A stretch of DNA of 37,847 nt from Tychonema sp. LEGE 07203 (lineage in GTDB: Bacteria; Cyanobacteriota; Cyanobacteriia; Cyanobacteriales; Microcoleaceae). Below are positions 9,015-28,486 of this stretch, in pieces. The stretch's first letter is position 1. Every line of letters starts with the position of its first letter. The DNA is taken from the NCBI RefSeq assembly GCF_015207285.1, contig NZ_JADEXD010000051.1, positions 1 through 37,847 of the forward strand. The letters are read 5' to 3'. The notes below the pieces were generated by a model. The model was not told where the DNA came from and made no database searches. It saw nothing but the letters and a program-made list of their open reading frames with translations. The position numbers were made by a program, and so were the translations under genes.

Positions 9015-10520
<1,506 letters not shown>

Positions 10521-10525
10521 TTTTA

Positions 10526-10728
10526 GTCAGTAGTCAGTAGTCAGTAGTCAGTAGTCAGTGGTTATTTGTTATTAGTTATTAGTTATTAGTTATTTGTTAT
10601 TTGTTATTGGTAACAACTGACAACTGGCAACTGATAACTGATAACTGACAACTGGCAACTGGCAACTGGCAACTGGCAACTGACAACTGACAACTGCCAA
10701 CTGACAACTGACAACTGACAACTGACAA
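10526..10728. repeat. Heptamer repeats between atpB and atpE
   Basis: The whole 211-bp spacer is made of heptamer runs: AGTCAGT (10526-10560), TAGTTAT and TTGTTAT (10562-10610), then CAACTGA/CAACTGG/TAACTGA (10615-10728), reaching to 4 bp before the atpE start. The transcript of an ATP-synthase operon must pass through it. Confidence 0.9.
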
Positions 10729-10731
10729 TTT

Positions 10732-11139
10732 ATGACATTAACTGTGCGCGTAGTGGCCCCAGACAAAACTGTTTGGGATTCTAATGCTGAAGAGGTAATT
10801 CTGCCTAGCACCACAGGCCAATTGGGTATCTTGACCGGTCACGCTCCGATGTTGACTGCTTTGGATACCGGAGTGATGCGCGTCCGTCCCGGTAAGGAAT
10901 GGGTGTCTATTGCTCTGATGGGCGGCTTTGCAGAAATTCAAGAAAACCAGGTTACTATTCTTGTCAACGGCGCTGAAAAAGGCGAAACGATCGACAAAGA
11001 AGATGCTCGCAAGGCTTACACCGAAGCAGAAGCTCGTTTGCAAAAGTCGGCTAGCGCCACTTTGCAAGAGCAAATTCAAGCTAAGCAAGCAATCAAACGC
11101 GCGCGAGCTCGTTTCCAAGCTGCGGGCGGCACGCTTTAG
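10732..11139 (+). CDS. atpE: ATP synthase F1 subunit epsilon
   Basis: The 135-residue epsilon subunit forms part of the rotor stalk and regulates ATP hydrolysis (atpE in cyanobacteria, atpC elsewhere). The N-terminal beta-sandwich shows [42 protein letters not shown], the family signature; the C-terminal helical hairpin carries an alanine-rich, charged sequence ending [12 protein letters not shown]. It follows atpB on the same strand after a repeat-filled spacer that supplies no normal Shine-Dalgarno sequence (TGACAATTT precedes the ATG), so its translation signal may be weak or unusual. Confidence 0.97.
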
Positions 11140-11678: not shown

Positions 11679-12779
11679 ATGAGATTTTTTAATACTGTAA
11701 AACTACTTGTACGATATTTTATGACCCAAGCCAAGACTAAACTTCAACGATCGCATTTCCGTAAAAAAAATATTAAATGGTGCTTTACTTGGGGATACTT
11801 ACTGCTATTTGTGCTGGTTTTTTGCTTGACTTTAACTGTGGCAAGTTGCCAGTCACCACCCATAAATAGCAATACACCAAAAACCCAAAATCCACATTCA
11901 AACTTAACAAAAATTGTCAGAATCGGCCATCAGGGTTTCGGAGTGCTGTTTTATCTCAAAGCTAAAGGCTCTTTGGAAACCCGTTTAGCAGAAATTGGGT
12001 GGCGTGTAGAATGGACGGAATTTCTCGCAGGGCCGCCAATTTTAGCAGCAATCGGAAAAGGAAAAATCGATCTCGGTTATGCAGGAGTTGCGCCGCCAAT
12101 TTTTGCCCAATCAGACGGCGTACCTTTTGTTTATATTGCTAATGATTCAGCTTTACCGGGAAGCATTGGGATCGTAGTTCCTCAAGATTCTCCTATTCGG
12201 ACTTTGGCGGATCTCAAAGGCAAGAAAATAGCAGCTACTCAGAAAACCGCAGGTCACTATTTGTTAATTCGGGCGTTAACTAAAGGCGGCTTGCAGTTAA
12301 AAGATGCCGAATTTGTCGATTTGCCGCCGACAAAAGCTCGGGAAGCATTTGTGAGAGGCGAGGTTGATGCTTGGGCGATTTGGCAGCCGTTTCTCGCTCA
12401 GTTACAGGAAACTATGCCTGCTGATTTTTTGACTGACAGCGACGGGCTGATGAATGATAGGAATTTCTATTTGGCAAGTCGCTCTTTTGCTAGCGACTTT
12501 CCCGATGTTATTAAAATAGTCATGGGAGAAACGCGAAAAATGGCTGCTTGGATAACTAGGAATCCCCAGGGAGCAGCGGAATTTATCAGCGCTCGAAATA
12601 AAATGAAAAAAACAACAGCTAGAATATTAACTAAAAGCCGCAGCTACGATTTGCTGCCAATTCAAGACAGCGCTGTTGAAGAACAGCAGCGGATTTCTGA
12701 GATTTTTTTTCGCTTGGGATTACTTCCCGATCGCATTTGGATTGAAGATGCTATCTGGAAACAAAGATTAGATTTATAA
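11679..12779 (+). CDS. ABC-type substrate-binding lipoprotein, SsuA/NMT1-like
   Basis: The 366-residue protein has a long basic N-terminus, a hydrophobic segment (about 37-54) and a lipobox TVASC (Cys57), so it is probably a lipoprotein facing the periplasm. The mature part follows the periplasmic-binding fold II pattern of aliphatic-sulfonate, taurine, nitrate and thiamine-precursor binding proteins: KIVRIGHQGFGVLFYLKAKG, VEWTEFLAGPPILAAIGKGKIDLGYAGVAPPIFAQ, IVVPQDSPIRTLADLKGKKIAATQKTAGHYLL and AREAFVRGEVDAWAIWQPF. The ligand cannot be told. ATG 11721 (14 codons in) is an alternative start; neither has a good RBS. No permease or ATPase gene is near. The next gene is a membrane receptor with an extracytoplasmic sensor, so a ligand-presenting role for the receptor is possible but inferred. 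Confidence 0.85.
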   Translation: MRFFNTVKLLVRYFMTQAKTKLQRSHFRKKNIKWCFTWGYLLLFVLVFCLTLTVASCQSPPINSNTPKTQNPHSNLTKIVRIGHQGFGVLFYLKAKGSLETRLAEIGWRVEWTEFLAGPPILAAIGKGKIDLGYAGVAPPIFAQSDGVPFVYIANDSALPGSIGIVVPQDSPIRTLADLKGKKIAATQKTAGHYLLIRALTKGGLQLKDAEFVDLPPTKAREAFVRGEVDAWAIWQPFLAQLQETMPADFLTDSDGLMNDRNFYLASRSFASDFPDVIKIVMGETRKMAAWITRNPQGAAEFISARNKMKKTTARILTKSRSYDLLPIQDSAVEEQQRISEIFFRLGLLPDRIWIEDAIWKQRLDL

Positions 12780-12894
12780 AACCAGAAGTTAGGCAAAGGT
12801 ATCGATAAATCAAAGGCGGCGTTTTCTCAAGTCTGAAAAATGAAATTAGGTGTATCCTATAAAGTTAGTTCAAACTGTTAACGGGCAAAATCAA

Positions 12895-15800
12895 ATGTCC
12901 TCAATTGCCAATCAACTGCGTTACGGTTTTGTCTCGATTGTTGTAGCTAGCGTATTGATAGCGGGAAGTACGTTAGCTTACCTCAGCTTTCGGGGACAGA
13001 TAGAACAGACAAAACAGCTTCAGTTCGAGCGATCGCAAGCTGCTGCTGTCCAAATTAGCGCTTATCTGGATAACTTGCAGCGCCAACTCAATTATTTGTC
13101 AGAATTGCGCGGTTTAACAGAATTTAATGCTGAAACTCAGCGCAGTATTCTCGAAGGATTGGTGAACAGCAACAGCGCCTACGAAGTCGCGGGAATTTTT
13201 AACAGTCAAGGTCAACTCTTACAGGCAATTTCGCCTTACGAACCTTTTTCTATTTCTAGCTTGAGTTTAGCAGGTATTTCGGCAGATGCACCGATATTTT
13301 GGCAGACATTTAGGCAGGGGCAAAACTATGTTAGTCCGGTAGATGTCGATTTCAAAACAGCAGTAAATGTTGTTAATTTAGCAGTGCCGATTCGCGACAG
13401 TAAAAATAGAATTGCTGGAGTATTGTTTGCCAGAGTTAGTCTAAATTTTTTAACTCAAATTGTCGCCCGATCGCAAGTAGGGAAAACCGGATATAGCTAT
13501 GTTTTAGATAACAGATCGGTGCTGATTTCGGAAACGGGAAGCAAGGTTAATCCGTATTTACTGCAAGATTTGAGCGGGCGATCGTTTGTGGGAAAGTTAT
13601 TCAAATTAGCTTTGGCTTCGGGGATGCAATCTCCGATCGTTTATCGAGGCTGGCGCGGGGAAGAAGTCATGGGTACGGCGGCGATCGTCCGCCAGGTGCA
13701 GTGGATGGTGGTGGTAGAGCTACCTGCGGCGGAAGCTTACGCTCCGGTGCGATCGCTCGTAGCCGTCATGGGTGCAGTTACAATCGCCAGCGCCCTCGCC
13801 GCTGCGGGCTTGGGAGTTGCTTTGGCTCGATCGATCGCAAATCCCTTGAAAGCCCTAACTTCCGCAGCTACTAAAATGACTAGCGGAATGTTAGAAACTC
13901 GGGTAGATATTGTAGCATCTAACGAACTAGGAAAATTAGCTAATGCTTTCAACAGCATGGCAAGTCAATTGCAAGTATCTTTCACAAAACTAGAAGCTCA
14001 AAATGCCCAATTGCAGCGACTAGATCAACTAAAAGACGAGTTTTTAGCCAACACTTCTCACGAACTCCGCACTCCACTTAACGGTATTATCGGTTTAACA
14101 GAATCTTTAATCGACGGCGCTACAGGACAATTGCCACAACCGACTATTTCCAATCTAGAAATTATTGCATCTAGCGGCAGAAGACTCTCCAATCTCATCA
14201 ACGACATTCTCGATTTCTCGCAGCTCAGACACAAAAACATTGAACTGCAAATCAAGCCCGTCGGCATCCGAGAAATTGTCGATATCGTAGTGACTCTTTC
14301 TCAACCGCTAATTGGTACAAAAAACTTGCAGTTGATTAATTCCGTCACTCCCGACATTCCCCTAGTGGATGCCGATGAAAATCGGGTGCAACAAATCCTG
14401 TATAACTTAATCGGAAATGCGATTAAATTTACCGACACTGGTACTGTAGAAATTTCGGCAAATGCCATATCTTTGAATTTGCCGGATTTTTTAGAGCGAG
14501 ACAGTTCTGTTACCAGCCAGCTTCAATCTTTAATTGTCAGGTCAAAACTGCAAATTACTGTATCCGATAGCGGGATTGGCATTGCTGAAGATAAATTAGA
14601 AAGTATTTTTGAACTTTTTGAACAAGCCGACGGTTCCACTGCTAGAGAATACGGAGGAAGCGGTTTGGGTTTGGCAATTACCAAGCAGTTAGTTGAGCTG
14701 CACGGTGGCGAAATTAATGTATCTTCAGAACTCGGTATTGGTTCGCAGTTTACCTTTAGTTTGCCAGTCTCTCACAATCAGTATATCGACAACCAGCAGT
14801 TGCCAGCTACGGTGCAGCAGTGTTTGGTTTCCACAACTAACGAGCGCAATTTAATAAATGAAGCTGCAGAAATAACTTTTAATAATAACAGTTACATTGA
14901 AGGTCGATTTCGGCAACAAAACACTCTAGTTAAAATTTTAATTGTAGATGACGAACCTGTGAATATTCAGGTACTGGTTAACAATTTACTTCGGGAAAAC
15001 TATGCCATCGCCGAAGCTAGCAGCGGTAAAGAAGCTTTAGCTCTTATAGACACAGGCTATAAGCCAGATTTAATCTTGCTAGATATCATGATGCCGCGGA
15101 TGACTGGTTACAAAGTTTGCCAAAAAATACGGGAGAAATTCACGGCGATCGAAGTGCCAATCGTGATGCTAACAGCCAAAAATCAAGTATCTGATTTAGT
15201 GCAAGGTTTTAATGCAGGAGCGAATGATTTTTTAACTAAACCGTTTGTCAAAGATGAATTGCTAGCCAGAATCAAAACTCATATCCGTTTGGCAAAAATT
15301 AATGCAGCTTACGGTAGATTTGTCCCCCACGACTTTCTGCGTTTTTTGGGACACGAAAGTATTGTTGATGTCCAACTAGGCGATCAAATTCAGAAAGACA
15401 TGACTGTTTTATTTTCTGATATTCGCTCTTTTACGACTATTTCCGAAGCGATGACTCCCCAAGAAAATTTTAATTTTATCAACAGCTACCTCAGCCGAGT
15501 GAGTCCGGTTATTCGCGCTCACCAAGGTTTTATTGATAAATATATCGGCGATGCAATTATGGCGCTATTTCCTGAGTCTGCAGATGATGCTGTTCGCGCG
15601 GCGGTGGAAATGCAAAAACAAGTGATTGTTTACAACCAGCACCGACAGCGAAGCAATTACGCACCAATCGCGATCGGCATCGGTTTGCACGCGGGTACTT
15701 TAATGTTGGGTACGATTGGCGAGGAGGAACGGATGGAAAGTACGGTGATTGCTGATGCGGTGAATCTCGCTTCTCGTTTGGAAGGATTGACTAAGGTTTA

Positions 15801-16167
15801 CGGCTCGGGAATTCTGGTAACAGAATCAATTTTAGAGCGTTTGGGCGATCGAGAACAATATCTCTACCGATTTGTCGATCGCGTCACAGTAAAAGGTAAA
15901 ACATCAGTGGTGTCAGTGTTTGAAATTTATGATGCAGAAACACAACAAAGCATGGAACTCAAACAGGAAACTGCAGCAGCCTTTGAAAAAGGTTTGGAGC
16001 TTTATTTTGAGCAAAATTTTACTAAGGCGCAAAAAATATTCAAAAAAATTTGCGAAACAAATCCTCAAGATAAGTTAGCAGCAATCTACTGCCAGCGTTC
16101 TCTCAAGAATCGGATGTATGGAGTGCCAGAAGGATGGTCGGGGATAGAAGCTTTGGATGACAAGTAG
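12895..16167 (+). CDS. Hybrid histidine kinase / class III adenylate cyclase receptor, copy 1
   Basis: The 1090-residue membrane receptor starts at ATG 12895 (a GTG 15 codons upstream is possible). Order: TM1 (about 12-34); Cache-like extracytoplasmic sensor (about 40-280); TM2 (about 285-312); HAMP; coiled coil; HisKA with TSHELRTPLNG (His389); HATPase with NLIGNAIKFT, DSGIGI and GGSGLGLAI; receiver with phospho-acceptor Asp730 in LLDIMMP and Lys in TKPF; class III cyclase; TPR-like tail ending PEGWSG. Cyclase residues are all present: metal Asp842 and Asp886, substrate-specifying Lys882 and Thr950, and catalytic Asn957 and Arg961. The Lys/Thr pair indicates a class IIIb adenylate cyclase, as in CyaC of Arthrospira/Anabaena. 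The sensor is about 60 residues shorter than in the next two genes and lacks an R-P-W-Y motif. It follows the lipoprotein gene by 115 bp, possibly in one transcript. Confidence 0.93.
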   Translation: MSSIANQLRYGFVSIVVASVLIAGSTLAYLSFRGQIEQTKQLQFERSQAAAVQISAYLDNLQRQLNYLSELRGLTEFNAETQRSILEGLVNSNSAYEVAGIFNSQGQLLQAISPYEPFSISSLSLAGISADAPIFWQTFRQGQNYVSPVDVDFKTAVNVVNLAVPIRDSKNRIAGVLFARVSLNFLTQIVARSQVGKTGYSYVLDNRSVLISETGSKVNPYLLQDLSGRSFVGKLFKLALASGMQSPIVYRGWRGEEVMGTAAIVRQVQWMVVVELPAAEAYAPVRSLVAVMGAVTIASALAAAGLGVALARSIANPLKALTSAATKMTSGMLETRVDIVASNELGKLANAFNSMASQLQVSFTKLEAQNAQLQRLDQLKDEFLANTSHELRTPLNGIIGLTESLIDGATGQLPQPTISNLEIIASSGRRLSNLINDILDFSQLRHKNIELQIKPVGIREIVDIVVTLSQPLIGTKNLQLINSVTPDIPLVDADENRVQQILYNLIGNAIKFTDTGTVEISANAISLNLPDFLERDSSVTSQLQSLIVRSKLQITVSDSGIGIAEDKLESIFELFEQADGSTAREYGGSGLGLAITKQLVELHGGEINVSSELGIGSQFTFSLPVSHNQYIDNQQLPATVQQCLVSTTNERNLINEAAEITFNNNSYIEGRFRQQNTLVKILIVDDEPVNIQVLVNNLLRENYAIAEASSGKEALALIDTGYKPDLILLDIMMPRMTGYKVCQKIREKFTAIEVPIVMLTAKNQVSDLVQGFNAGANDFLTKPFVKDELLARIKTHIRLAKINAAYGRFVPHDFLRFLGHESIVDVQLGDQIQKDMTVLFSDIRSFTTISEAMTPQENFNFINSYLSRVSPVIRAHQGFIDKYIGDAIMALFPESADDAVRAAVEMQKQVIVYNQHRQRSNYAPIAIGIGLHAGTLMLGTIGEEERMESTVIADAVNLASRLEGLTKVYGSGILVTESILERLGDREQYLYRFVDRVTVKGKTSVVSVFEIYDAETQQSMELKQETAAAFEKGLELYFEQNFTKAQKIFKKICETNPQDKLAAIYCQRSLKNRMYGVPEGWSGIEALDDK

Positions 16168-16688
16168 TAAAAGTAACATCAACCTGACTGCAGAAAATTT
16201 TATGTGTTTATCCGGTTTTTTTACCCGATCTCAGTCATAATATATTCAGAACAAAGCATGGGAATCCAAAATTGGCAGTTTTCCTGACCAATTCACCGCC
16301 GATCGCACTAAGCTGTCGCGCAAATAAAAATTGCATATTTAGGGCGGGCTCTCCTGCCAACCCCACTCATGATTTATTTTTTTTGAACAGCTTAAATGCA
16401 GGACAGCTTACAGGTACAAAACACAGATTCTCTCCTCCGACCGACTCTATTTTTCCTTAGTAAATTTACTTTCACCAGTTAACTTTCAACAGTTAACAGT
16501 TAACAGTTAACTGTTAACTGTTAACAATCATTTCATCTGTGTTACCGTAATTGATATTAACCGTGTATAGCAATCCTAGCAGGAGTCGTAAACTTTTTAC
16601 CTCACCCCAACCCTTCCCTTGTCAAGGGGAGGGAGTGAGAAATTCACAAATGATTTAGGATTGCTATATTTCCAGCTCAATTAATGTT
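16168..16688. other. Gene-free gap between receptor copies 1 and 2
   Basis: It contains a palindromic heptamer run at 16487-16527 (CAGTTAA units switching to CTGTTAA, able to fold back on itself) and the inverted-repeat element at 16566-16668, which ends 20 bp before the next start codon. A 62-codon frame at 16272-16460 has no recognisable features. Confidence 0.6.
16566..16668. mobile_element. MITE-like element with 13-bp perfect terminal inverted repeats
   Basis: The ends TATAGCAATCCTA (16566-16578) and TAGGATTGCTATA (16656-16668) are perfect inverted copies. The interior holds a second imperfect palindrome, CTCACCCC...CCCTTCCCTTG and CAAGGGGAGGG..GTGAG. It is 103 bp long with no coding capacity. 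TA at the tips would fit insertion by an IS630/Tc1-type transposase; that is inference, and no such transposase lies in the window. Confidence 0.65.
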
Positions 16689-19600
16689 ATGTCAAATTTT
16701 TCTCTCCAGCGCTTAATTGCCAAAATTTCCGGAAGATCGACCCTGCAAACTGTGCTGATAGTTCCCTTTGTCTTGCAAGTATTTGCAGCGGTGGGAATTG
16801 TCGGATATTTATCATTTAAGAACTCTCAAAGAGCAGTAAACGATCTTGCCGATCAGTTGATGGGGGAGGTGAGCAATCGGATCGAGCAAAATTTGATAAC
16901 TTATCTGGAAACTCCGCACCAAATCAATCAAAGCAAGCTGGATGCGGTGAAACTGGGTTTTGTGAACATGAAAGATTTGTCAGCTTGGGAAAAATATCTG
17001 TGGCGGCAAGTGCAGTTGTATCCTTACATAAATTTTACGTCGATCGCCAATCGAGATGGAGAATACCGCACGGGCGAAAAGACTTCAGACGGGACTTTAT
17101 TTATTAACGCATCCGGGCCATCTACAAATTTTGATTTTTATTCGTACAATACTAATGATTCGGGCGATCGCACTACAGTAGCAAGCACCGTCAAAAACTT
17201 CGATATCCGACAACATCCTTCCTACACCTATGCGGCTCTAGCAAGCAAACCAACCTGGAGTTCAGTTTATATATCCTTCCTAGAACCTACACTGATCCTC
17301 AGCGCTCTGCAACCAGTTTACAACAGCCAGAAACAGCTAGAAGGAGTATCAATTGCTGCTTTGCGTCTCGACAGTATCGGTCAATTTTTAAACAGCCTCA
17401 AAATAGGCAAATCCGGTCAAACTTTTATTATCGAAAGAAACGGCACGCTGCTGGCAACTTCCACGCCGGAACAACCTTTCCGCACCCAAAACGGTAAAAG
17501 AGAACTGTTTAAAGTTACAGAAAGCAGCGATACCGTAACAAAAAATACAGCTAAATATTTAGAAACACACTTTCAAAACTTGCGCCAAATCACCAAATCG
17601 CAGCAACTAAGTTTTGAAATAAACGGCAAGCCACAATTTTTAAAAGTCCTGCCATTCCAAGACGGCAAAAGTTTAGATTGGCTGATTGTCGTCGTCGTTC
17701 CCGAAGCCGACTTTATGGAACAAATTCATGCCGGCAACCGAACTACAATATTGCTATGTTTGGCCGCATTAGTCATGGCAACTGTGCTAGGACTTATCAC
17801 TTCTCGGTGGATTAGCAAACCTATTTTAAAATTAAAAGATGCAGCAATAGCTTTGTCGGAAGGACAATTTGACAAAACAGTCAAACTCGATCGCTCCGAT
17901 GAGCTGGGCATACTTGCTGCTGCTTTTAATAGCATGGCAGCACAACTGCAAGCATCTTTTACGGCGTTAGAAACTAAAAATAACGAATTGCAGCGACTGG
18001 ACAAACTGAAAGACGAATTCTTAGCAAATACTTCCCACGAACTCCGCACTCCCCTCAACGGCATCATTGGAATTGCAGAATCTTTAATAGATGGTGCTAC
18101 CGGAAAACTGCCAGAGCCCACAAATTTTAACTTGAATTTGATTGCAACGTCGGGAAAAAGATTGTCTTCTTTGATTAACGATATTCTGGATTTTTCTCAG
18201 CTCAAACACAAAACTATAGAACTGCAAATAAAGCCCGTCGGTATCCGAGAAATAGTCTCTGTAATTATCAGCTTATCTCAACCGTTAGTCGGCAAAAAAG
18301 ACTTGAAGCTGATTAACTCAGTCGCTGCCGAATTGCCACCCGTAGCAGCCGACGAGAATCGCTTGCAGCAAATACTTTACAACTTAATCGGCAATGCGGT
18401 TAAATTTACCGAAGATGGTACAGTTGAAATTTCAGCAGAATTAGTAACTGGCAACCAACAATCACCGCTTAATTCCCAATTAGCCATTACTGTATCCGAC
18501 ACCGGCATTGGCATCCCCGAAGATAAATTAGAGCGAATTTTTGAATCCTTTGAACAAGCTGACGGTTCCACTGCTAGAGAATATGGCGGCACTGGTTTAG
18601 GGTTAGCTGTGGCCAAGCAGTTAGTGGAATTGCACGGAGGTACAATTTCCGTATCTTCCACTGTAGGCGCGGGTTCCCTATTCACCTTTACTTTGCCGGT
18701 ATCTGAAACTCAGCCGGAATTTAACAGCAGACAGCGGCCTTTAACCCAGGAATCTCGCAGTTTAAAAACTCCTGAATTAGCCCAGCAATCATCTATCATA
18801 AATTCGGGCTTATCAGCCAATAGCAACTTCCCAGAAAATCAAAAAATAAAAATTTTGGTGGTAGATGATGAACCCATTAATATTCAGGTCATCACTAACA
18901 ATCTTTCTTTAGAAAACTACGCCATCACTCAAGCCAGCAACGGCTTAGAAGCTTTAAATTTGATTCAATCGGGATTTAAGCCAGACTTAATTTTACTAGA
19001 TGTAATGATGCCGCAGATGACTGGTTATGAAGTGTGCAGGGAAGTTCGCAAAACATTCTCGCCTTTAGAAATGCCAATTCTGATGCTGACGGCAAAAAAT
19101 CAAACTACCGACTTGGTAGAAGCTTTTACCTTAGAAGCGAATGATTATGTAACTAAACCTTTTATCAAAAAGGAGTTGTTGGCGAGAATTAATACGCAAA
19201 TTCGCTTGGCAAAACTGAATGCAGCTTACGGCAGGTTTGTGCCGCACGATTTTCTGAGTTTGCTGGAGAAACCGAGTATTATTGAAGTAAAATTAGGCGA
19301 CAATCAGCAAAAGGATATGACAGTGCTGTTTGCTGATATTCGCTCGTTTACGTCGCTTTCGGAATTGATGACACCGCCTGAGAATTTTGCATTTATTAAT
19401 AGTTATTTGGGAAAAGTTAGCCCTGCAATCAGGAAAAACAACGGGTTTATTGATAAGTATATTGGGGATGCAGTCATGGCTTTGTTTTCTACATCTCCTG
19501 ACGATGGTGTGCGAGCAGCAATTGATATGCAAGAAGAAGTGAATATTTTTAATTCCGATCGCGAAAAAAATGGCTTGTTTCCGATCGCGATCGGCATTGG

Positions 19601-20084
19601 TTTGCACGCGGGAAATCTGATGCTGGGTACAATTGGCGAGCGAGAACGGATGGAAAGTACCGTGATTGCTGATGCGGTGAATCTCGCGTCTCGTTTGGAA
19701 GGATTGACTAAGGTTTACGGCGCAAGAATTCTAGTTAGCGGTGCAATTATCGCTCGCCTGGACGATCCTGAACAATATAAATACAGATTTGTCGATCGCG
19801 TAGCGGTGAAAGGAAAGACAAATGCTGTGTCGGTGTTTGAAATTTACGATACAGAAACAGAAAAAAGTATTGTACTGAAGCAGCAAACTGCGGAGTTTTT
19901 TCAAGAAGCTCTCGCTTTGTACTACCAGCAAAAGTTTGTTGCCGCTCAAAAAATGTTTCATAATATCTTACAAATAAATCCTGACGATCTGGTAGCAATG
20001 CTGTATTTCAAACGCTCTCGCAAGTATCGAATGTATGGAACACCGGATGGGTGGTCGGGGGTGGAAGTTTCGATGGAGAAGTAG
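16689..20084 (+). CDS. Hybrid histidine kinase / class III adenylate cyclase receptor, copy 2
   Basis: This 1131-residue protein has the same architecture as its neighbours: TM1 (about 19-41), double-Cache-like sensor (about 45-345), TM2 (about 351-374), HAMP, coiled coil, HisKA with His450 (TSHELRTPLNG), HATPase (NLIGNAVKFT, DTGIGI, GGTGLGLAV), receiver with Asp771 (LLDVMMP), cyclase and TPR-like tail ending PDGWSG. Cyclase residues Asp883, Lys923, Asp927, Thr991, Asn998 and Arg1002 are all present, so it should make cAMP (class IIIb Lys/Thr pair). From HAMP to the end it is very similar to copy 1. The sensor instead resembles copy 3 in length but has HPSY where copy 3 has RPWY, so its ligand is probably different. 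A weak start context follows the mobile element. Confidence 0.93.
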   Translation: MSNFSLQRLIAKISGRSTLQTVLIVPFVLQVFAAVGIVGYLSFKNSQRAVNDLADQLMGEVSNRIEQNLITYLETPHQINQSKLDAVKLGFVNMKDLSAWEKYLWRQVQLYPYINFTSIANRDGEYRTGEKTSDGTLFINASGPSTNFDFYSYNTNDSGDRTTVASTVKNFDIRQHPSYTYAALASKPTWSSVYISFLEPTLILSALQPVYNSQKQLEGVSIAALRLDSIGQFLNSLKIGKSGQTFIIERNGTLLATSTPEQPFRTQNGKRELFKVTESSDTVTKNTAKYLETHFQNLRQITKSQQLSFEINGKPQFLKVLPFQDGKSLDWLIVVVVPEADFMEQIHAGNRTTILLCLAALVMATVLGLITSRWISKPILKLKDAAIALSEGQFDKTVKLDRSDELGILAAAFNSMAAQLQASFTALETKNNELQRLDKLKDEFLANTSHELRTPLNGIIGIAESLIDGATGKLPEPTNFNLNLIATSGKRLSSLINDILDFSQLKHKTIELQIKPVGIREIVSVIISLSQPLVGKKDLKLINSVAAELPPVAADENRLQQILYNLIGNAVKFTEDGTVEISAELVTGNQQSPLNSQLAITVSDTGIGIPEDKLERIFESFEQADGSTAREYGGTGLGLAVAKQLVELHGGTISVSSTVGAGSLFTFTLPVSETQPEFNSRQRPLTQESRSLKTPELAQQSSIINSGLSANSNFPENQKIKILVVDDEPINIQVITNNLSLENYAITQASNGLEALNLIQSGFKPDLILLDVMMPQMTGYEVCREVRKTFSPLEMPILMLTAKNQTTDLVEAFTLEANDYVTKPFIKKELLARINTQIRLAKLNAAYGRFVPHDFLSLLEKPSIIEVKLGDNQQKDMTVLFADIRSFTSLSELMTPPENFAFINSYLGKVSPAIRKNNGFIDKYIGDAVMALFSTSPDDGVRAAIDMQEEVNIFNSDREKNGLFPIAIGIGLHAGNLMLGTIGERERMESTVIADAVNLASRLEGLTKVYGARILVSGAIIARLDDPEQYKYRFVDRVAVKGKTNAVSVFEIYDTETEKSIVLKQQTAEFFQEALALYYQQKFVAAQKMFHNILQINPDDLVAMLYFKRSRKYRMYGTPDGWSGVEVSMEK

Positions 20085-20479
20085 GGCGTTTTTTGAAGTC
20101 ATTAGTCATTAGTCATTAGTCATTAGTCATTAGTCATTAGTTCTGTCCCCGCCGAGCTTTCCGTCCAATGTCATCAGGAAGAAGTCCGAGGGAAGAAGGT
20201 AGAGGACAGACTTGATTCAACATTCCTCGACGCAGAACCTAATTATGTAAATTTCCAGGACATAATTGTGCAGCACGGATTATTAGCATGAGCTACAATG
20301 ATTTTTATCAGGGAAATTGTCGCATTTGGTTCGGTGATTTCGATCGCATCACGCATCTACGAGCCGGCTAATTTCAGTCTAATTAGCGATCGGCAATTAG
20401 CTGGAACTATTATTAATTACGCTCAAATGCAAGAATCAGCCGATTTGTGCATTTTCTCTGAGAACTGAGGCGGTTTACC
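20085..20479. other. Gap between receptor copies 2 and 3 with TAGTCAT heptamers and a small open frame
   Basis: TAGTCAT heptamers at 20098-20139 lead into TTCTGTCCCCGCCGAGCTTTCC and GTCCAATGTCATCAGGAAG, also seen at 1309 and 5790. A 56-codon frame runs from ATG 20298 to TGA 20468, ending 11 bp before the third receptor. GAGG (20467-20470) is the probable ribosome-binding site for copy 3. Confidence 0.6.
20298..20468 (+). CDS. Possible small leader protein (56 residues), unknown
   Basis: The frame starts MIFIREIVAFGSVISIASRI and ends DLCIFSEN, just before the third receptor gene. Its stop region supplies the GAGG ribosome-binding site of that receptor, a layout compatible with translational coupling. 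It has no strong Shine-Dalgarno site of its own, no recognised domain, and only a mildly hydrophobic N-terminus. It may be a chance frame or a remnant. Confidence 0.2.
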   Translation: MIFIREIVAFGSVISIASRIYEPANFSLISDRQLAGTIINYAQMQESADLCIFSEN

Positions 20480-23400
20480 ATGTTATTGAAAAGTATCAGC
20501 AGATCGATCGCAAAATTTTACAGCAGCGTGCCCCTCCGTTTAGGGCTGACAGTGCCATTTGTCCTGCAGACTGTCGCCGCAGTCAGCCTAGTGGGATATT
20601 TGTCTTTCATCAACGGACAAAAAGCCGTTCAAGAATTGGTCAACAGCTTGCAAGGCGAAATTAGCGATCGCATTCAAGAGCACCTCACAAATTACTTGGA
20701 AAAACCTCATACTATTGCCCGACTCAATGCAAGTACAGCTCAACTCGGCAAGCTGGAAACAGCAGATTTGCAAGCAACACAAAGCTACTTTTGGCAGCAG
20801 ATGCAAGTATTCTCATCGGTGCGAGAAATCTATTTGGGCAGCAAGCAAGGTGAATTTATCGGAGTTCGCCGAGAAGCATCTGGACTATTAGTTGCGAAAA
20901 TCACAGAAAACTTTCCTCGGCGTTCTTACTATGCTTTGGATAACCGAGGCAATCCCACTAATTTATTGAGTTACGAAGCAAATTATGACCCGCGAACTCG
21001 ACCCTGGTATATCGGTGCAACCGCAGCCAATAAATTAGTTTGGACGCAAATTTATACATTTTTTGAGGGAGATTTGGGAATCACAGCGGCTCAACCTTTC
21101 TATGATAATCGAGGTGAGTTTCTGGGAGTAATGGCAGTTGATATGATGTTGAGCCAGATTGGTAACTTTTTGGGAAAAATGAAAATTAGCCGATCGGGTC
21201 AAACTTTCATTATGGAGCGATCGGGCGCTTTGGTGGGCAGTTCGACACAGGAAAAACCCTACACCGTCGGTGATGACGGCAAAACTCGACGATTGCTGGC
21301 AATTGACAGCAAAAATCCTTTAACGAAGGCTGCAGCTAAACACATTATTAATAATTTTAATTTAAACCGAGTTGAGCCGCCCCGAAAACTTGAATTTCAA
21401 GTGAAGAATCAGCGGCATTTTCTGCAGGTATTGCCCTACAAAGACCCCAGCGGCATCGATTGGTTAGTAGCGATCGTGATTCCAGAAAACGATTTTATGG
21501 AAGAAATTAATGCAAGTACCGCTAGCACTCTTTTACTCTGCGCCGCCGCGCTAATTCTAGCAACAATTATTGGCGATTTGACGGCTCGCTCGATCGTGCG
21601 GCCAATTTTGGGGTTAAACGCAGCAGCCAAAAATATCGCGCGAGGAGAATGGGATCAGAAACTAGAGTTCGATCGCGCCGACGAAGTAGGAGAGCTCGCC
21701 AAATCCTTCACCAGCATGGTATATCAACTGCAAACGTCCTTCGCAGCCCTTGAAAAGAAAAATCAAGAATTGCTGCAATTTGACCAACTCAAAGACGAAT
21801 TTTTAGCCAACACCTCCCACGAATTCCGAACTCCCCTCAACGGGATGATTGGTATTGCCGAATCAATGATTGACGGCGCCACCGGAACTTTATCGGAAAT
21901 TCAGCAGCACAACCTCTTAATGATTGCTAGCAGCGGCAGGCGGCTCAACGAACTTGTTGACAATATTCTGGATTTTGCTCAACTCAAAAATCAAAAACTA
22001 GAATTGCAGTTTCGCAGTGTAGGAATCAAGTCAATTGTCGAAGTTGTACTAACTGTGAGTAAATCTTTAACCCGCAATAAAAACTTGCAGTTAATTAACA
22101 ATATTGCTCCGAATTTGCCGTTGGTTTGGGCTGACGAAAACCGCTTGCAACAAATCCTTTATAACTTGATTGGCAATGCGATCAAATTCACCGAGAGTGG
22201 CACTGTAGAAATATCAGCAGAAATTGTAGTAGCCGACGGCGAAACCTTCCTCCCAGCGCCCGCGTACAATCGCCCGCCGTCAAGCCCTGATTTTCACATA
22301 GCTGTCACTGTTTCCGATAGTGGAATTGGCATTCCGAGCGATCGGCTCGATTGCATTTTTGAGCCATTTGAACAAGCCGACGGTTCCACAGTCAGGCAAT
22401 ACGGAGGAACTGGTTTAGGTTTAACAATATCCAAACAATTTGTCGAACTCCACGGGGGTAAAATATACGCAGCATCGAAAGTCGGCATCGGTTCCCGCTT
22501 CACATTTACCCTGCCTATTTGTACCGAACAAGTTTATCCGAACAAAGCAGCAATCAACCCGCACGCAGCCACCAAAACTAACGGTTTTCAATTACAAAAT
22601 AAGATATATAAAAGTTATTTATCCTGCGATTTAAATTTTGAGCGAACCGCTCCGGCTTCAACAAACAAAGCCGTAGCGCTATTAGAAGTCAAACAATTTA
22701 AAATTATGATAGTTGACGACGATCCGATCAACCTGCAAGTTTTAAACAATCATCTTTCTCTGGAAAATTACAGCGTCATTCAGGCAGCCGGCGGCGAACA
22801 AGCTTTATCGCTCATCGAAGGCGGACAGCATTTTGACTTAATCATTCTCGACATCATGATGCCCAGAATGTCGGGTTATGAAGTCTGCGCCAAACTGAGG
22901 GAAAAACATCCCTCCCACGAGTTGCCAGTTGTGATGTTAACGGCTAAAAATCAAGTGTCAGATTTAATCATAGGATTTCAATTCGGCGCTAACGACTATT
23001 TAACCAAACCTTTCTCGAAAGACGAACTTTTAACCCGAATTAAGTCTCACATCAACTTATCGCAAACTAACAGCGCCTACGGGCGATTTTTTCCCGATGC
23101 CTTCTTAGAATTTCTGAAAAAAGAAAGCATTGTGGATATTCAATTAGGCAATCATGTCAGCAAACAAATGGCAGTTATGTTTAGCGATATTCGCTCTTTT
23201 ACCTCGCTTTCGGAAACGATGACTCCGCAGCAAAACTTTGACTTTGTTAATGCTTACTTGCGAGAAGTGAGTCCCACAATTAGAGAGAATCACGGCTTTA
23301 TTGTCAAGTATTTGGGAGATGGGATGATGGCGGTTTTTCCCAACGGTGCTGACGATGCACTCAAAAGTGGAATTGCTAAACTGCAACAAGTTCACCGATA

Positions 23401-23935
23401 TAATGTCGATCGGCTTCGCAGCGGATATCAACCGATTCAAGTAGGTGTAGGAGTGCATTTCGGTCAAATGATGGTGGGGATAGTCGGAGAAGCACAGAGA
23501 ATGCAGGGAGATGCTTTTTCCAATCATGTCAACTTAGCCTCTCGTTTGGAAAGTCTCACCAAATTATATGGAGTATCGTTAATAATTTCTGATAAAATTT
23601 TGGAAAATTTGAGCGAACCCGAACAGTATCAAATCCGTTTTTTAGATAGAGTAATTGTCAAAGGCAAAAAACAGCCAATTTCCATCTATGAAGTCCTCGA
23701 CGGAGAAACCGAGTCAGTCAGGGAAATCAAGTTACAAACTCAGGCGGATTTTGAACGGGGTTTAGAACATTACCGCCGTCACGAATTTCAGGCTGGTAAA
23801 ACCTGTTTTTATCAAGTTTTAGCTGTGAATCCCGACGACAAAACGGCTGCACTGTATTTAGAGCGACTCAACCATTTGATTGAGAAGGGCGTACCGGAAA
23901 ATTGGTCTGGGGTTTGGACTTTAACTCAGAAATGA
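20480..23935 (+). CDS. Hybrid histidine kinase / class III cyclase receptor, copy 3 (divergent)
   Basis: This 1151-residue receptor has the same domain order: TM1 (about 18-40), double-Cache sensor (about 45-340), TM2 (about 349-373), HAMP, HisKA with His447 (TSHEFRTPLNG), HATPase (NLIGNAIKFT, DSGIGI, GGTGLGL), receiver Asp791 (ILDIMMP), cyclase and tail ending PENWSG. The sensor has YDPRTRPWY (Tyr169-Tyr177), a later Tyr192 and Asp221 in VMAVDM, the pattern of amino-acid/amine-binding dCache domains. Cyclase metal residues Asp903 and Asp947, Lys943, Asn1018 and Arg1022 are kept, but the second specificity residue is Asp1011 where copies 1 and 2 have Thr. This is a class IIIa-like Lys/Asp pair and still predicts ATP as substrate. 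Its 3' end overlaps the convergent HD-domain gene by 68 bp. Confidence 0.93.
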   Translation: MLLKSISRSIAKFYSSVPLRLGLTVPFVLQTVAAVSLVGYLSFINGQKAVQELVNSLQGEISDRIQEHLTNYLEKPHTIARLNASTAQLGKLETADLQATQSYFWQQMQVFSSVREIYLGSKQGEFIGVRREASGLLVAKITENFPRRSYYALDNRGNPTNLLSYEANYDPRTRPWYIGATAANKLVWTQIYTFFEGDLGITAAQPFYDNRGEFLGVMAVDMMLSQIGNFLGKMKISRSGQTFIMERSGALVGSSTQEKPYTVGDDGKTRRLLAIDSKNPLTKAAAKHIINNFNLNRVEPPRKLEFQVKNQRHFLQVLPYKDPSGIDWLVAIVIPENDFMEEINASTASTLLLCAAALILATIIGDLTARSIVRPILGLNAAAKNIARGEWDQKLEFDRADEVGELAKSFTSMVYQLQTSFAALEKKNQELLQFDQLKDEFLANTSHEFRTPLNGMIGIAESMIDGATGTLSEIQQHNLLMIASSGRRLNELVDNILDFAQLKNQKLELQFRSVGIKSIVEVVLTVSKSLTRNKNLQLINNIAPNLPLVWADENRLQQILYNLIGNAIKFTESGTVEISAEIVVADGETFLPAPAYNRPPSSPDFHIAVTVSDSGIGIPSDRLDCIFEPFEQADGSTVRQYGGTGLGLTISKQFVELHGGKIYAASKVGIGSRFTFTLPICTEQVYPNKAAINPHAATKTNGFQLQNKIYKSYLSCDLNFERTAPASTNKAVALLEVKQFKIMIVDDDPINLQVLNNHLSLENYSVIQAAGGEQALSLIEGGQHFDLIILDIMMPRMSGYEVCAKLREKHPSHELPVVMLTAKNQVSDLIIGFQFGANDYLTKPFSKDELLTRIKSHINLSQTNSAYGRFFPDAFLEFLKKESIVDIQLGNHVSKQMAVMFSDIRSFTSLSETMTPQQNFDFVNAYLREVSPTIRENHGFIVKYLGDGMMAVFPNGADDALKSGIAKLQQVHRYNVDRLRSGYQPIQVGVGVHFGQMMVGIVGEAQRMQGDAFSNHVNLASRLESLTKLYGVSLIISDKILENLSEPEQYQIRFLDRVIVKGKKQPISIYEVLDGETESVREIKLQTQADFERGLEHYRRHEFQAGKTCFYQVLAVNPDDKTAALYLERLNHLIEKGVPENWSGVWTLTQK

Positions 23936-25322
23936 GCTGGTAGTATCGGTAGATAGCAGATTTGCGACTTTCAAACAACTTGAGAATTGAGTCTACGACA
24001 ATTTCTGTAACTGTCGGGTTAAAATCGGAAATAAAGTCATCGGCTTCGAGGTTTTGCTTAAACAATTCCTTAGCTCGATCGCACTGACGGCGCATTTCGT
24101 CAAAGCCGACAATTTTTACTATCAACGTCGCCAGCGGGGAGTTTTCCAAATCGCTATTAGAAGTGCTTTTAGCCCGCCCATTTTCTAATAAATTTAAGAC
24201 TTCTGATTCTAAATTATTTTGAGGTTTGTAAGGTTTTTCCGTTTCTGGAAAAAAGCTTTCCAGGCGCACGCACCCGGCTGCTCGTTCGGGAATTTCTCCC
24301 ATCATCATCGCCAGAGAAACATCGATTCCCAAACCTGAAGAAAGAGCTTCCAGCAGGGCGATAGCAGCTAGTTTGCACCCCAAATAAAGCTTGGCAATTT
24401 CTAGATTGTACTTAGCAGTAGTTTGCCAGCGCTGATAGGTGCGATCGTCCGGACATCCCTCAAACTGCCGGAAAATCACCTCTGGCTGGAGATAACTCAG
24501 AAAACCCTCCATTTTCAGCAGAGCAACTCGGTAGTCGCGAACCGTGTAATAACCGCAGCAGGTGAGGTTGTGATTGGTTTCCGGGAGTAAATTCCAGGTA
24601 TTTGCCAAAAAATGGGCTGAACTCTGGTGAGCAAAACTGATTACATCTCGGTTAGAAATTCGCACAGCTTTTTTGACCGTTTCCCGCATTTGCTCGTCAG
24701 TCAAACTGAGGTTGAACAGGCTATTTATTGCTTGCAAGCGGTCGTAAAGGCGCTGGCTTACCGTTATTCCCTGCTCGGCGGCGCGAAATGGAATTGTTGC
24801 TTCAATGCAGGCTGCAATTTGAAGTAATTGCTCGCGTTTGAGAAATGGTTCTAGAGCTTTTGTTGCTACCAAAGCACTGAGAAATTCGTTTTGTCCTGAG
24901 AAGGGGTTGAGCACTTCTCCGGGTACAAAACCGAATACGAGCATTACCATCTCGAAGCTAGGATCTGCCGAGAGTTCAGATTGCTCCCGAATCTGTAGCT
25001 GTTTGTTAACTTCTTTTGTAACAGGAGCGACGTAGTAGCTGACGTTAAAGTTAATGCTGCGATCGACTTGCACGTAAACGATATCGTGAAATAAGGCGGC
25101 CAAAACTTCGATCGCATCTTCATTTCCCCCTACATCAAAAATATGTTCGGGAGTGTGAAAAAATCGCCAGGAGCCGGTCATCGGCTGAACTATCAGTTCG
25201 GCAATCCGAGCGAGTTCATTTGGTTGTACTTCTGCTTTGAGGCGACCCATTGCCCAAATCAGCTTTTCTAAGCACTGTAAATATGCCTGTTTGCTATCCA
25301 TCGCAGTCTTTTCCAATAACAT
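23868..25322 (-). CDS. HD-domain (predicted metal-dependent phosphohydrolase) protein
   Basis: The 484-residue protein has an N-terminal HD-superfamily segment: WRFFHTPEHIFDV (His56, His60) followed by LAALFHDIVY (His79-Asp80). This resembles the COG4339-type pattern YHTxxHI...WFHDxVY. The C-terminal two thirds are helical and not recognised, with IAACIEATIPFR and a late segment FDEMRRQCDRAKELFKQNLEADDFISDFNP. There is no signal peptide or membrane helix. ATG 25301 (MDSKQAYLQ) is an alternative start. The substrate is unknown. Its position against three cyclases, with a 68-bp convergent overlap with the third, invites a link to cyclic-nucleotide turnover, but the family is not known to degrade cAMP. 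Its leader is a copy of the efp leader repeat. Confidence 0.75.
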   Translation of the reverse strand: MLLEKTAMDSKQAYLQCLEKLIWAMGRLKAEVQPNELARIAELIVQPMTGSWRFFHTPEHIFDVGGNEDAIEVLAALFHDIVYVQVDRSINFNVSYYVAPVTKEVNKQLQIREQSELSADPSFEMVMLVFGFVPGEVLNPFSGQNEFLSALVATKALEPFLKREQLLQIAACIEATIPFRAAEQGITVSQRLYDRLQAINSLFNLSLTDEQMRETVKKAVRISNRDVISFAHQSSAHFLANTWNLLPETNHNLTCCGYYTVRDYRVALLKMEGFLSYLQPEVIFRQFEGCPDDRTYQRWQTTAKYNLEIAKLYLGCKLAAIALLEALSSGLGIDVSLAMMMGEIPERAAGCVRLESFFPETEKPYKPQNNLESEVLNLLENGRAKSTSNSDLENSPLATLIVKIVGFDEMRRQCDRAKELFKQNLEADDFISDFNPTVTEIVVDSILKLFESRKSAIYRYYQLISELKSKPQTNFPVRPSQSNG

Positions 25323-27232: not shown

Positions 27233-28486
27233 ATGGACAAGCAAAACCAAATGCAATGGGTCAGCGCTTTATCAACCCGTCCGTCTTTGGAATCAGCCCT
27301 GAAAGAAGTTGTAGAACAAGCCGATCGCCAATTAGAAGGCCCGGCCGATTTAGCGCTGATATTTATTTCATCTGCCTTTGCCAGCGAGTATTCTCGGCTG
27401 ATGCCTTTAGTGCAAGAACTGCTGCCGGTGCCAGCGATTCTAGGCTGCGGCGGGGGAGGGGTCATCGGCACGAACCGGGGCGGTCTCACCGAAGAAGTGG
27501 AGGGTTCTCCAGCCGTCACCCTGACTCTGGCCCGCTTGCCGGGAGTGAATGTCAGAACATTTCACGTCGGTGCAGAAGAACTGCCGGACTTAGACAGTCC
27601 CCCGGATACTTGGGTGGATTTGTTGGGCGTGCCGGCCGGCGAAGAACCGCAGTTTATCATCTTGGCAGACCCCTTTTCGGCAAAAATTAACGATTTGCTG
27701 CAAGGGCTAGATTATGCGTATCCCGGCGCGCCGAAGATAGGGGGACTCGCAGGCGGGGACGGTGCGGGCAGGGGTGCGGCGCTGTTTTGCGACTATCAGC
27801 TTTACCGGGAAGGGACGGTGGGACTGGCTTTGAGCGGCAATATAGTTTTGGAAACGATCGTCGCTCAAGGCTGTCGGCCGATCGGGCATCCGTATCGGGT
27901 GACGGAAGGAGAGCGCAATATTTTGCTGAAACTCGAAGAACAAACCGACGATATTGGCAGCGGGGGCATCGAGCGATCGCCCTTAGAGGCCCTGCGAGAG
28001 TTAGTTCAAACCTTGAGCGAAGCAGACCGAGAATTAGCGCAGCACTCGTTATTTGTCGGCTTAGTCAGCGATGAATTCAAGCTGAGATTAGAGCCGGGAG
28101 ATTTTTTAATCCGCAATCTGTTGGGAGTAGATCCGAAAGTGGGGGCAATTGCGATCGGCGATCGAGTCCGTCCCGGACAGCGCATCCAATTCCACCTGCG
28201 GGACGCGCGCACCTCCGCAGAAGACCTAGAAATGCTGCTCGACCGCTATCAGCGGGATGCTGAGTACAGGGGTACATCCAGCGCCGGCGCATTGATGTTC
28301 TCTTGTCTGGGGCGCGGCGAAGGGCTTTACGGTCAATCGAACTTTGACTCGCGACTGTTCGGCAGGTACATCAAAAACATTCCCCTGAGCGGCTTTTTCT
28401 GCAACGGCGAAATCGGCCCCGTGGGCGGCAGCACGTTTCTGCACGGCTACACCTCCGTATTCGGGATTTGCCGCCAAAATTCATAA
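27233..28486 (+). CDS. FIST-domain (FIST_N/FIST_C) signal-transduction protein
   Basis: The 417-residue soluble protein has the FIST_N pattern in its first half: LALIFISSAFASEY, ILGCGGGGVIGTNRG, VTLTLARLPGVNVRTFHVG, ADPFSAKINDLLQGLDYAYPGAPKIGGLAGG and LYREGTVGLALSGNI. FIST_C follows in the second half: RNILLKLEEQ, FVGLVSDEF, DFLIRNLLGVDPKVGAIAIGDRVRPGQRIQFHLRDARTS, ALMFSCLGRG and SGFFCNGEIGPVGGSTFLHGYTSVFGI. FIST domains are predicted small-ligand (often amino-acid-like) sensors that usually work with separate kinases or cyclases. This one is free-standing with no kinase next to it, although three kinase-cyclases lie 4 kb away. Conservation in cyanobacteria is high. The start at ATG 27233 has no strong RBS. 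Confidence 0.9.
   Translation: MDKQNQMQWVSALSTRPSLESALKEVVEQADRQLEGPADLALIFISSAFASEYSRLMPLVQELLPVPAILGCGGGGVIGTNRGGLTEEVEGSPAVTLTLARLPGVNVRTFHVGAEELPDLDSPPDTWVDLLGVPAGEEPQFIILADPFSAKINDLLQGLDYAYPGAPKIGGLAGGDGAGRGAALFCDYQLYREGTVGLALSGNIVLETIVAQGCRPIGHPYRVTEGERNILLKLEEQTDDIGSGGIERSPLEALRELVQTLSEADRELAQHSLFVGLVSDEFKLRLEPGDFLIRNLLGVDPKVGAIAIGDRVRPGQRIQFHLRDARTSAEDLEMLLDRYQRDAEYRGTSSAGALMFSCLGRGEGLYGQSNFDSRLFGRYIKNIPLSGFFCNGEIGPVGGSTFLHGYTSVFGICRQNS

Follow-up and report, generated by a model that had tools for sequence, protein, structure and literature searches.

Three tandem receptor cyclases with separate predicted sensing modes in the cyanobacterium Tychonema sp. LEGE 07203

Here we report a computational analysis of three tandem genes, C1, C2, and C3, each encoding a sensor, a histidine kinase, a receiver, and a nucleotide cyclase in a single chain, in Tychonema sp. 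LEGE 07203, a cyanobacterium of a mat-forming type. The window, i.e., the whole stretch of 37,847 nucleotides that was analyzed, is one contig (NZ_JADEXD010000051.1; C317 in our survey) of a 6.6-Mb genome assembled in 351 contigs, and the closest named relatives by C3 are Microcoleus sp. LEGE 07076 (91% identical) and Tychonema sp. LEGE 06208 (88%). The three genes lie on one strand together with an upstream gene for an SsuA-like substrate-binding protein, with atpB-atpE (9063-11139) on one side and a FIST-domain gene, beginning at 27233, on the other (Table 1). All three same-strand open reading frames (ORFs), first pointed out in a first-pass annotation of this DNA, are real. For C1, the ATG at 12895 was preferred over the start at 12850, because orthologue frames, e.g., that of locus L057, open only 3 codons upstream of this ATG. 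To our knowledge, the signals sensed by most cyanobacterial cyclases are not known; here, each receptor receives a specific prediction, namely amino acids for C3, a ligand carried by the SsuA-like protein for C1, and something else for C2.

The Pfam domain search returned the same full order in C1, C2, and C3, dCache_1-HAMP-HisKA-HATPase_c-Response_reg-Guanylate_cyc, with every match above the curated cutoff, in agreement with the three sensor-kinase-receiver-cyclase chains of the first-pass annotation, which had not recorded a C-terminal tail of about 80 amino acids that follows the cyclase in each protein. The sensor is flanked by two strong hydrophobic segments in all three, and C1 has a third, weaker segment within the sensor. 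The key residues that had been listed as intact, i.e., the kinase His389, His450, and His447, the receiver Asp730, Asp771, and Asp791 (in C1, C2, and C3, respectively), and the cyclase Asp pairs, were found at exactly these positions. The kinase N, G1, and G2 boxes are intact, and the receivers have the acidic pair, the Thr, and the Lys in addition to the Asp, so that each protein carries the full residue set of a hybrid histidine kinase (HisKA His, N/G1/G2 boxes, and receiver Asp, Thr, and Lys). The cyclases have two metal-binding Asp residues (842 and 886 in C1, 883 and 927 in C2, 903 and 947 in C3), a Lys (882, 923, and 943), and an Asn/Arg pair (957/961, 998/1002, and 1018/1022); this class III set is complete in 11 of 11 C1, 22 of 22 C2, and 12 of 12 C3 proteins. 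These residue counts cover the fetched loci with a full-length frame, window proteins included; the C2 of G338, truncated where its contig stops, those of G323 and G326, whose loci were not fetched, and a C3 split over two frames in G339 are left out. The adenine-site residue, a further feature absent from the first-pass annotation, divides the array: it is Thr950 in C1 and Thr991 in C2, the Thr of class IIIb (bicarbonate-type) cyclases, which C3 lacks, having Asp1011 instead. Thr is conserved in all 33 C1 and C2 orthologues (11/11 and 22/22) and Asp in 12 of 12 C3 proteins, and the intact cyclase half of the split C3 of G339 is of the Asp type too.

C1, C2, and C3 are under purifying selection. 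The whole-gene dN/dS is 0.14-0.28, with zero stop codons, in 14 orthologue comparisons (five for C1, five for C2, and four for C3), and the receiver value of 0.06-0.14 is the lowest of all domains in 13 of the 14; neither these figures nor the residues listed above reveal a degenerate kinase or cyclase domain, which the first-pass annotation had named as the finding that would speak against it. The all-against-all alignment that it had proposed was run, and it showed the sensors to be the most divergent part (22-35% pairwise identity) and HisKA the most alike (67-82%), with HATPase at 60-75%, the receiver at 57-66%, and the tail at 37-54%. The cyclases of C1 and C2 are 73% identical, and that of C3 is 51-54% identical to either. 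The sensor of C1 is only 22-25% identical to those of C2 and C3, which had not been remarked on before.

Taking these sequence features together, we think it likely that C1, C2, and C3 are receptor cyclases that convert three kinds of external signal into cAMP through a CyaC-like His-Asp relay, each by a separate sensing mode. A dCache sensor in the periplasm, flanked by a membrane helix on either side, would signal via HAMP to the histidine kinase, which would phosphorylate the receiver next to it in the chain, and the phosphorylated receiver would shift the attached cyclase dimer, thus changing cAMP output, presumably by activation rather than inhibition. The relay is probably the input of the cyclase, because the receiver directly precedes the cyclase in each copy. 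Both modules are indeed intact, as stated in the first-pass annotation, but its wording of two complete output systems is misleading, since the relay probably feeds the cyclase; its comparison with CyaC, with a sensor-driven His-Asp relay that controls the cyclase of its own chain, is the best reading. As for the inputs, C3 would bind an amino acid directly in its dCache pocket, C2 would use the same fold with a remodeled pocket for another ligand, and C1, which has no small-ligand motif, would depend on the neighboring SsuA-like protein to capture a ligand and dock on its dCache domain. On the output side, the Thr-type cyclases of C1 and C2 are possibly tunable by bicarbonate, and that of C3 is of the Asp type. 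The array pairs three apparent input modes with two cyclase types, which predict different bicarbonate behavior.

CyaC has the domain order REC-GAF-HK-REC-cyclase, where REC is the receiver and HK the histidine kinase, without a periplasmic sensor, and is reportedly activated by autophosphorylation and phosphotransfer. Like C1-C3, it unites in one chain a HisKA-HATPase kinase, a receiver, and, immediately after the latter, a class III cyclase, and it shares the Thr-type adenine site with C1 and C2. In contrast, it begins with an N-terminal receiver and GAF, where C1-C3 have a membrane dCache and HAMP, and it lacks their extra TPR-like tail. Membership of C1-C3 in CyaC itself is ruled out by this dCache_1-HAMP N terminus; the CyaC-order protein of the window's genome is another one (L099; REC-GAF-GAF-HK-REC-cyclase), the cyclase of which is 27-32% identical to those of C1-C3. 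The kinase-to-cyclase relay is supported by two split clusters of the window's genome, in which kinases and a tail-bearing cyclase of the same family are separate neighboring genes, in contrast to the single chains of C1-C3. One of them (L093; G000:C194, 3378-10902) encodes three proteins, namely dCache-HK-REC, the sensor of which resembles that of C2 (71% identical), REC-HK, and REC-PAS-cyclase-tail. In the other (L100; G000:C175, 5983-12950), an 1835-aa Ser/Thr kinase-AAA-GAF-HK gene precedes a REC-cyclase-tail gene of 470 aa. The structure model of the receiver, cyclase, and tail of C3 (mean pLDDT 78) has a long helix that leaves the receiver in the direction of the cyclase, where the confidence falls to about 60, and three tail helices; its Foldseek matches include photoactivated cyclases, CyaC (1wc1), Cya2, and REC-GGDEF proteins. 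The tail has weak TPR matches in relatives.

The sensor of C3 aligns to solved sensors of methyl-accepting chemotaxis proteins in PDB, including PctA, PctB, and PctC. The pocket residues Tyr121, Arg126, Trp128, Tyr144, and Asp173, as given for PctA in the text drawn on from PMC10104139 and PMC7584622, correspond at equal spacing to Tyr169, Arg174, Trp176, Tyr192, and Asp221 of C3. This dCache_1AA motif is kept in 12 of 12 C3 proteins, the window's included (the first position is Tyr in 10 and Phe in 2; the split copy of G339 was omitted). PctA, PctB, and PctC share the full pocket motif with C3 but have a chemotaxis signaling domain as output in place of the kinase-receiver-cyclase chain, and the ligand of C3 is a predicted one. 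None of the 22 C2 proteins has the motif, His or Asn, Ser or Leu, and Ala taking the place of Arg, Trp, and Asp. Because a fourth copy in the window's genome (C204; L101) and atpE-linked receptors of another genus also carry the amino-acid motif, the loss of the pocket in C2 is likely derived. The motif was found in 0 of 11 C1 proteins, the alignment of which is weak in the motif region.

The gene upstream of C1, likewise absent from the first-pass annotation, encodes an SsuA/NMT1-type protein matching PDB entries 2x26 ("periplasmic aliphatic sulphonates-binding protein") and 3e4r ("nitrate transport protein"). Its true start may be a later ATG, and three orthologues have an in-frame stop within the aligned range; no ABC permease, ATPase, or transporter gene was found among its Pfam-scanned neighbors. 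We surveyed 29 genomes of the genus, including that of the window, and called receptor orthologues by sensor identity. An orthologue of the SsuA-like gene (at least 74% identical) is present in 11 of these genomes, which are exactly the C1 holders, and G017 has a 58% fragment; in G030, the gene is on another contig. Since adjacent genes can be lost together, C1-type sensors were also surveyed elsewhere in the order, with up to nine candidates scored per genome, and 53 matches (E ≤ 1e-25) were obtained in 45 of 243 genomes and 24 of 109 genera. The 51 loci examined (L105 and L109-L158; the partial matches G012 and G480:C37 were omitted) include 49 testable ones, L111 and L137 lying at contig ends.

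In 44 of these 49 loci, a same-strand binding-protein gene lies within 0.5 kb upstream of the receptor; 27 of the proteins are BMP-like, 10 SsuA-like, and 7 NMT1_2. The 44 loci span 23 of the 24 genera, the 24th being untestable (L137), and NMT1_2 and BMP/PnrA genes stand just upstream of C1-type receptors in many of them (L151, L153-L158, and L121-L136). Four further loci of the window's genus, outside the order survey (L102, L104, L106, and L107), have an upstream binding-protein gene as well. The families were established by Pfam on samples, with PF02608 in 4 of 4 BMP proteins (L102, L105, L106, and L107, of which only L105 belongs to the 44) and PF13379 in 7 of 7 NMT1_2 proteins, and for the rest by BLAST, with the sampled BMP and NMT1_2 proteins and the window's SsuA as queries. 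As a control, a 13-query BLAST panel, which is blind to NMT1_2, detected a binding protein in 0 of 30 C3-type sensor loci of the order, taken one per genome. Counting the one longest frame per locus, 15 upstream frames reach 250 aa; two of them correspond to C2, and Pfam likewise returned no binding protein in the other 13. Shorter or more distant genes could escape this control. The difference between 44/49 and 0/30 has a Fisher p of 6e-17, a value that ignores kinship.

Among other C1-type receptors scanned (eight of the ten fetched from other genera, and L106), dCache_1 and HATPase_c are present in 9 of 9 and a cyclase in 0 of 9, so that C1 is the only cyclase-bearing type among them. On this sequence evidence, we give roughly even odds to C1 and the upstream SsuA-like protein forming a binding-protein-coupled receptor cyclase, in which a capture protein without adjacent transporter genes serves a sensor group that swaps both capture families and outputs. 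The proposed group would comprise cyanobacterial dCache sensors locked to a binding protein, with the capture module swapped among SsuA/NMT1, NMT1_2, and BMP and the output among PAS or GAF kinases, an AAA domain, and a cyclase. The dCache kinase KinD is said, in a title cited by PMC11210211, to need the lipoprotein Med, and LuxQ with LuxP is a dCache-type sensor kinase with a separate binding protein. C1 resembles both pairs in joining a dCache-type sensor kinase to a putative separate binding protein outside the membrane, and its relatives resemble them in having a conserved binding-protein gene beside the receptor (the 44 of 49 loci); in C1, unlike these pairs, the partner is of the SsuA/NMT1 type and the cyclase that serves as output belongs to the receptor chain itself. 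One BMP partner matches PDB 2hqb, "Transcriptional activator of comK gene" (E 4e-18), which we take to be Med. If true, such a conserved pairing between dCache kinases and binding proteins (23/24 genera) would offer a route to ligands for many kinases with unknown input. What is new about the array is the proposed pairing of C1 with a binding protein; titles and abstract openings contained no description of a dCache-HK-REC-cyclase array or of a binding-protein-paired cyanobacterial receptor group (excerpts of PMC1183210, PMC11245519, and PMC4821796 are cited in addition, as are the titles of Kasahara and Ohmori 1999 and Banse 2011).

In phylogenetic trees, C1, C2, and C3 form one clade each across the genus. 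In a careful tree of 42 cyclase rows, C3 grouped with a like receptor from a different genus, G006b, and with two Methylococcales PAS-cyclases that are unfused (support 100/99); C1 and C2 grouped with other receptors and with REC-cyclases (96/91), and the grouping of C1 with C2 had a support of 92/76, or 99 in a quick tree. The approximately unbiased (AU) test rejected a single clade of the 18 array cyclases against 11 unfused ones (p 0.0011) but did not reject a clade of the kinase-receiver cores of 31 fused rows against 10 unfused ones (p 0.375), the latter test being weak as most of the ten unfused kinases are distant. Since the cyclase clade was rejected and the kinase-receiver clade was not, it is probable that the cyclase module, at least, was exchanged. 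In the kinase-receiver tree, C2 pairs with C204, not with C1.

Several alternatives have to be weighed against this picture of three receptors with separate inputs. That the array is a redundant tandem triplication, in which one receptor was copied for dosage and the sensors drifted, is suggested by the common architecture, strand, and adjacency, by the HisKA identity, and by a tandem duplication of C2 alone in G337 (L083, 2219-9282; the copies are 78% and 77% identical to C2). We consider it improbable: each receptor is a clade of its own, the copies were lost independently of one another, the sensors retain different conserved pockets, and plain triplication is ruled out by the trees and the AU test, the C3 cyclase being of a different type. 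The duplication with sensor divergence assumed in the first-pass annotation accordingly survives in its second half only. The receivers might also act as integration hubs, phosphorylated mainly by other kinases, with their own kinase serving as a phosphatase or side branch. A precedent is the phytochrome-like kinase AphC, which, in the portion of PMC4284465 drawn on, purportedly phosphorylates and activates CyaC; with the H, N, G1, and G2 boxes of the own kinases intact and kinase and receiver kept in one chain throughout the 58 proteins of the core tree, we regard this as unlikely. A rather stronger, though still doubtful, contender is that the SsuA-like gene and C1 are mere neighbors and that C1 binds its ligand directly. 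Physical linkage accounts for joint gain and loss, and C1 retains a full dCache_1 match; the association of C1-type sensors on other kinases, in other genera, with an upstream NMT1, NMT1_2, or BMP gene, and its absence from the C3-type control, argue the other way.

The least probable of these alternatives, to which we assign very little weight, is that C3 senses autoinducer-2 (AI-2) instead of amino acids. According to the portion of PMC7584622 drawn on, PctA-type dCache pockets bind AI-2 as well, through a set of five residues (Arg126, Trp128, Tyr144, Asp146, and Asp173), and PctB and PctC have four of the five. So does C3, in which the Asp146 position is Phe194 (Phe in 12/12 C3 proteins), and with one residue missing AI-2 was rejected as the likelier ligand. 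The AI-2 binding of such pockets nevertheless tells against our preferred reading of three outside signals relayed to cAMP, as do the following points. The motif of C3 is a published predictor, which makes amino-acid binding a prediction; the absence of the motif is less certain in C1 than in C2, given how poorly its sensor aligns; and the receivers could be inhibitory or depend on other kinases. The 11/29 match of the SsuA-like gene with C1 may reflect linkage, one deletion removing both of the adjoining genes, the C1-type loci are related and hence not independent, and five of the 49 depart from the upstream same-strand pattern: L118 has an adjacent SsuA-like gene on the opposite strand, L138 a BMP remnant, and L143, L146, and L148, all from the genus of L138, have none. 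The bicarbonate proposal for the Thr-type cyclases goes back to PMC3383692, in the excerpted text of which Thr at the adenine site is thought predictive of the bicarbonate response.

The chain recurs across these cyanobacteria, and the array is a genus-level, labile assembly. Among the 29 genomes of the genus, C1 (at least 84% identical) is present in 11, C2 (at least 77%) in 24, and C3 (at least 63%) in 13; seven have all three on a single contig (G000, G011, G026, G033, G036, G333, and G336), and two (G017 and G340) have none. Remnants of loss include a C3 scrap in G030 (L056), C1 scraps in G331 (L088) and G332 (L087), and, in the one-contig genome G017 (L061, 8823-9900), an array of which there remain a piece of the SsuA gene and, adjoining it, a piece of the C2 cyclase. 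In L058, C2 and C3 lie about 2.9 kb apart, and the interval has short ORFs only. Eight loci from named relatives, not added to these counts, comprise five full triples (L031, L032, L034, L035, and L036), one C2-C3 pair (L037), and two C3 genes alone (L033 and L038, the latter split over two frames). Beyond the genus, the cyclase and tail were matched (E ≤ 1e-40) in 40 of 40 genomes of a family sample, and receptors of equal length and domain order are found in other genera. In the phylum, a kinase-receiver-cyclase query was matched at E ≤ 1e-150 in at least 20 of 292 genomes and 16 of 115 genera, a lower bound with three candidates scored per genome; the match reaches the cyclase in 18 of the 20 and covers the kinase and receiver only in G069 and G116. 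A genome of another genus (G021; L065, 5930-15415) has two receptor cyclases in a tandem of its own, with one more dCache protein after them. The first-pass annotation had called the array unusual; the single-contig triple is present in 7/29 genomes, and the architecture is not unique, in view of its recurrence, the fourth copy, and this tandem pair. The window's genome has 36 PF00211 matches and 13 cNMP-binding matches, the latter being possible effectors.

Table 1. Features of the receptor cyclase array (window coordinates)
Feature	Position	Strand	Evidence and remarks
SsuA/NMT1-type substrate-binding protein gene	11679..12779	+	TIGR01728 (E 2.7e-62), PF09084; lipobox-like VASC by eye
C1 receptor cyclase	12895..16167	+	1090 aa; alternative GTG start 12850
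C1 dCache sensor	13000..13719	+	PF02743; without amino-acid motif; binding-protein-paired group
C1 HAMP	13822..13974	+	PF00672
C1 HisKA + HATPase_c	14032..14772	+	PF00512, PF02518; His389
C1 receiver	14935..15276	+	PF00072; Asp730
C1 class III cyclase, Thr type	15391..15912	+	PF00211; Asp842, Lys882, Asp886, Thr950, Asn957, Arg961
C1 C-terminal tail	15913..16164	+	conserved; TPR-like; end GVPEGWSG...
C2 receptor cyclase	16689..20084	+	1131 aa
C2 dCache sensor, altered pocket	16824..17495	+	PF02743; Arg to His, Trp to Ser, Asp to Ala
C2 HisKA + HATPase_c	18009..18704	+	His450
C2 receiver	18852..19193	+	Asp771
C2 class III cyclase, Thr type	19305..19829	+	Thr991
C3 receptor cyclase	20480..23935	+	1151 aa
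C3 dCache amino-acid pocket motif	20984..21142	+	Tyr169, Arg174, Trp176, Tyr177, Tyr192, Asp221; PctA spacing
C3 HisKA + HATPase_c	21791..22519	+	His447
C3 receiver	22703..23044	+	Asp791
C3 class III cyclase, Asp type	23162..23677	+	Asp1011
C3 C-terminal helical tail	23678..23932	+	model m89d66838c33d, helices 358-379, 383-396, 401-416; last codons overlap convergent gene

The window contains no RNA families at the gathering threshold and no tRNAs, and scans for promoters (30 vs 25.4 in shuffles, sd 4.8) and terminators (17 vs 15.6, sd 3.7) did no better than on shuffled sequence. Convergent with C3 is a gene for a conserved 484-aa protein (23868-25322, minus strand; 78-88% identical in nine relatives), which overlaps the 3' end of C3 by 68 bp, with overlaps of about 65-68 bp in L055 and L057 too. 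By eye, its N-terminal part is presumably HD-phosphohydrolase-like. At E 0.001, neither Pfam nor NCBIfam gave a match for this protein; Pfam hits up to E 1 were insignificant, one PDB profile matched at E 0.05, and the structure model (pLDDT 47.9) was too poor to search. It was not included as a phosphodiesterase of the system, having no domain match and persisting without C3 (L078 and L087-L089). The FIST-domain gene near the array (27233-28486) is conserved in relatives, and FIST is thought to bind small molecules.

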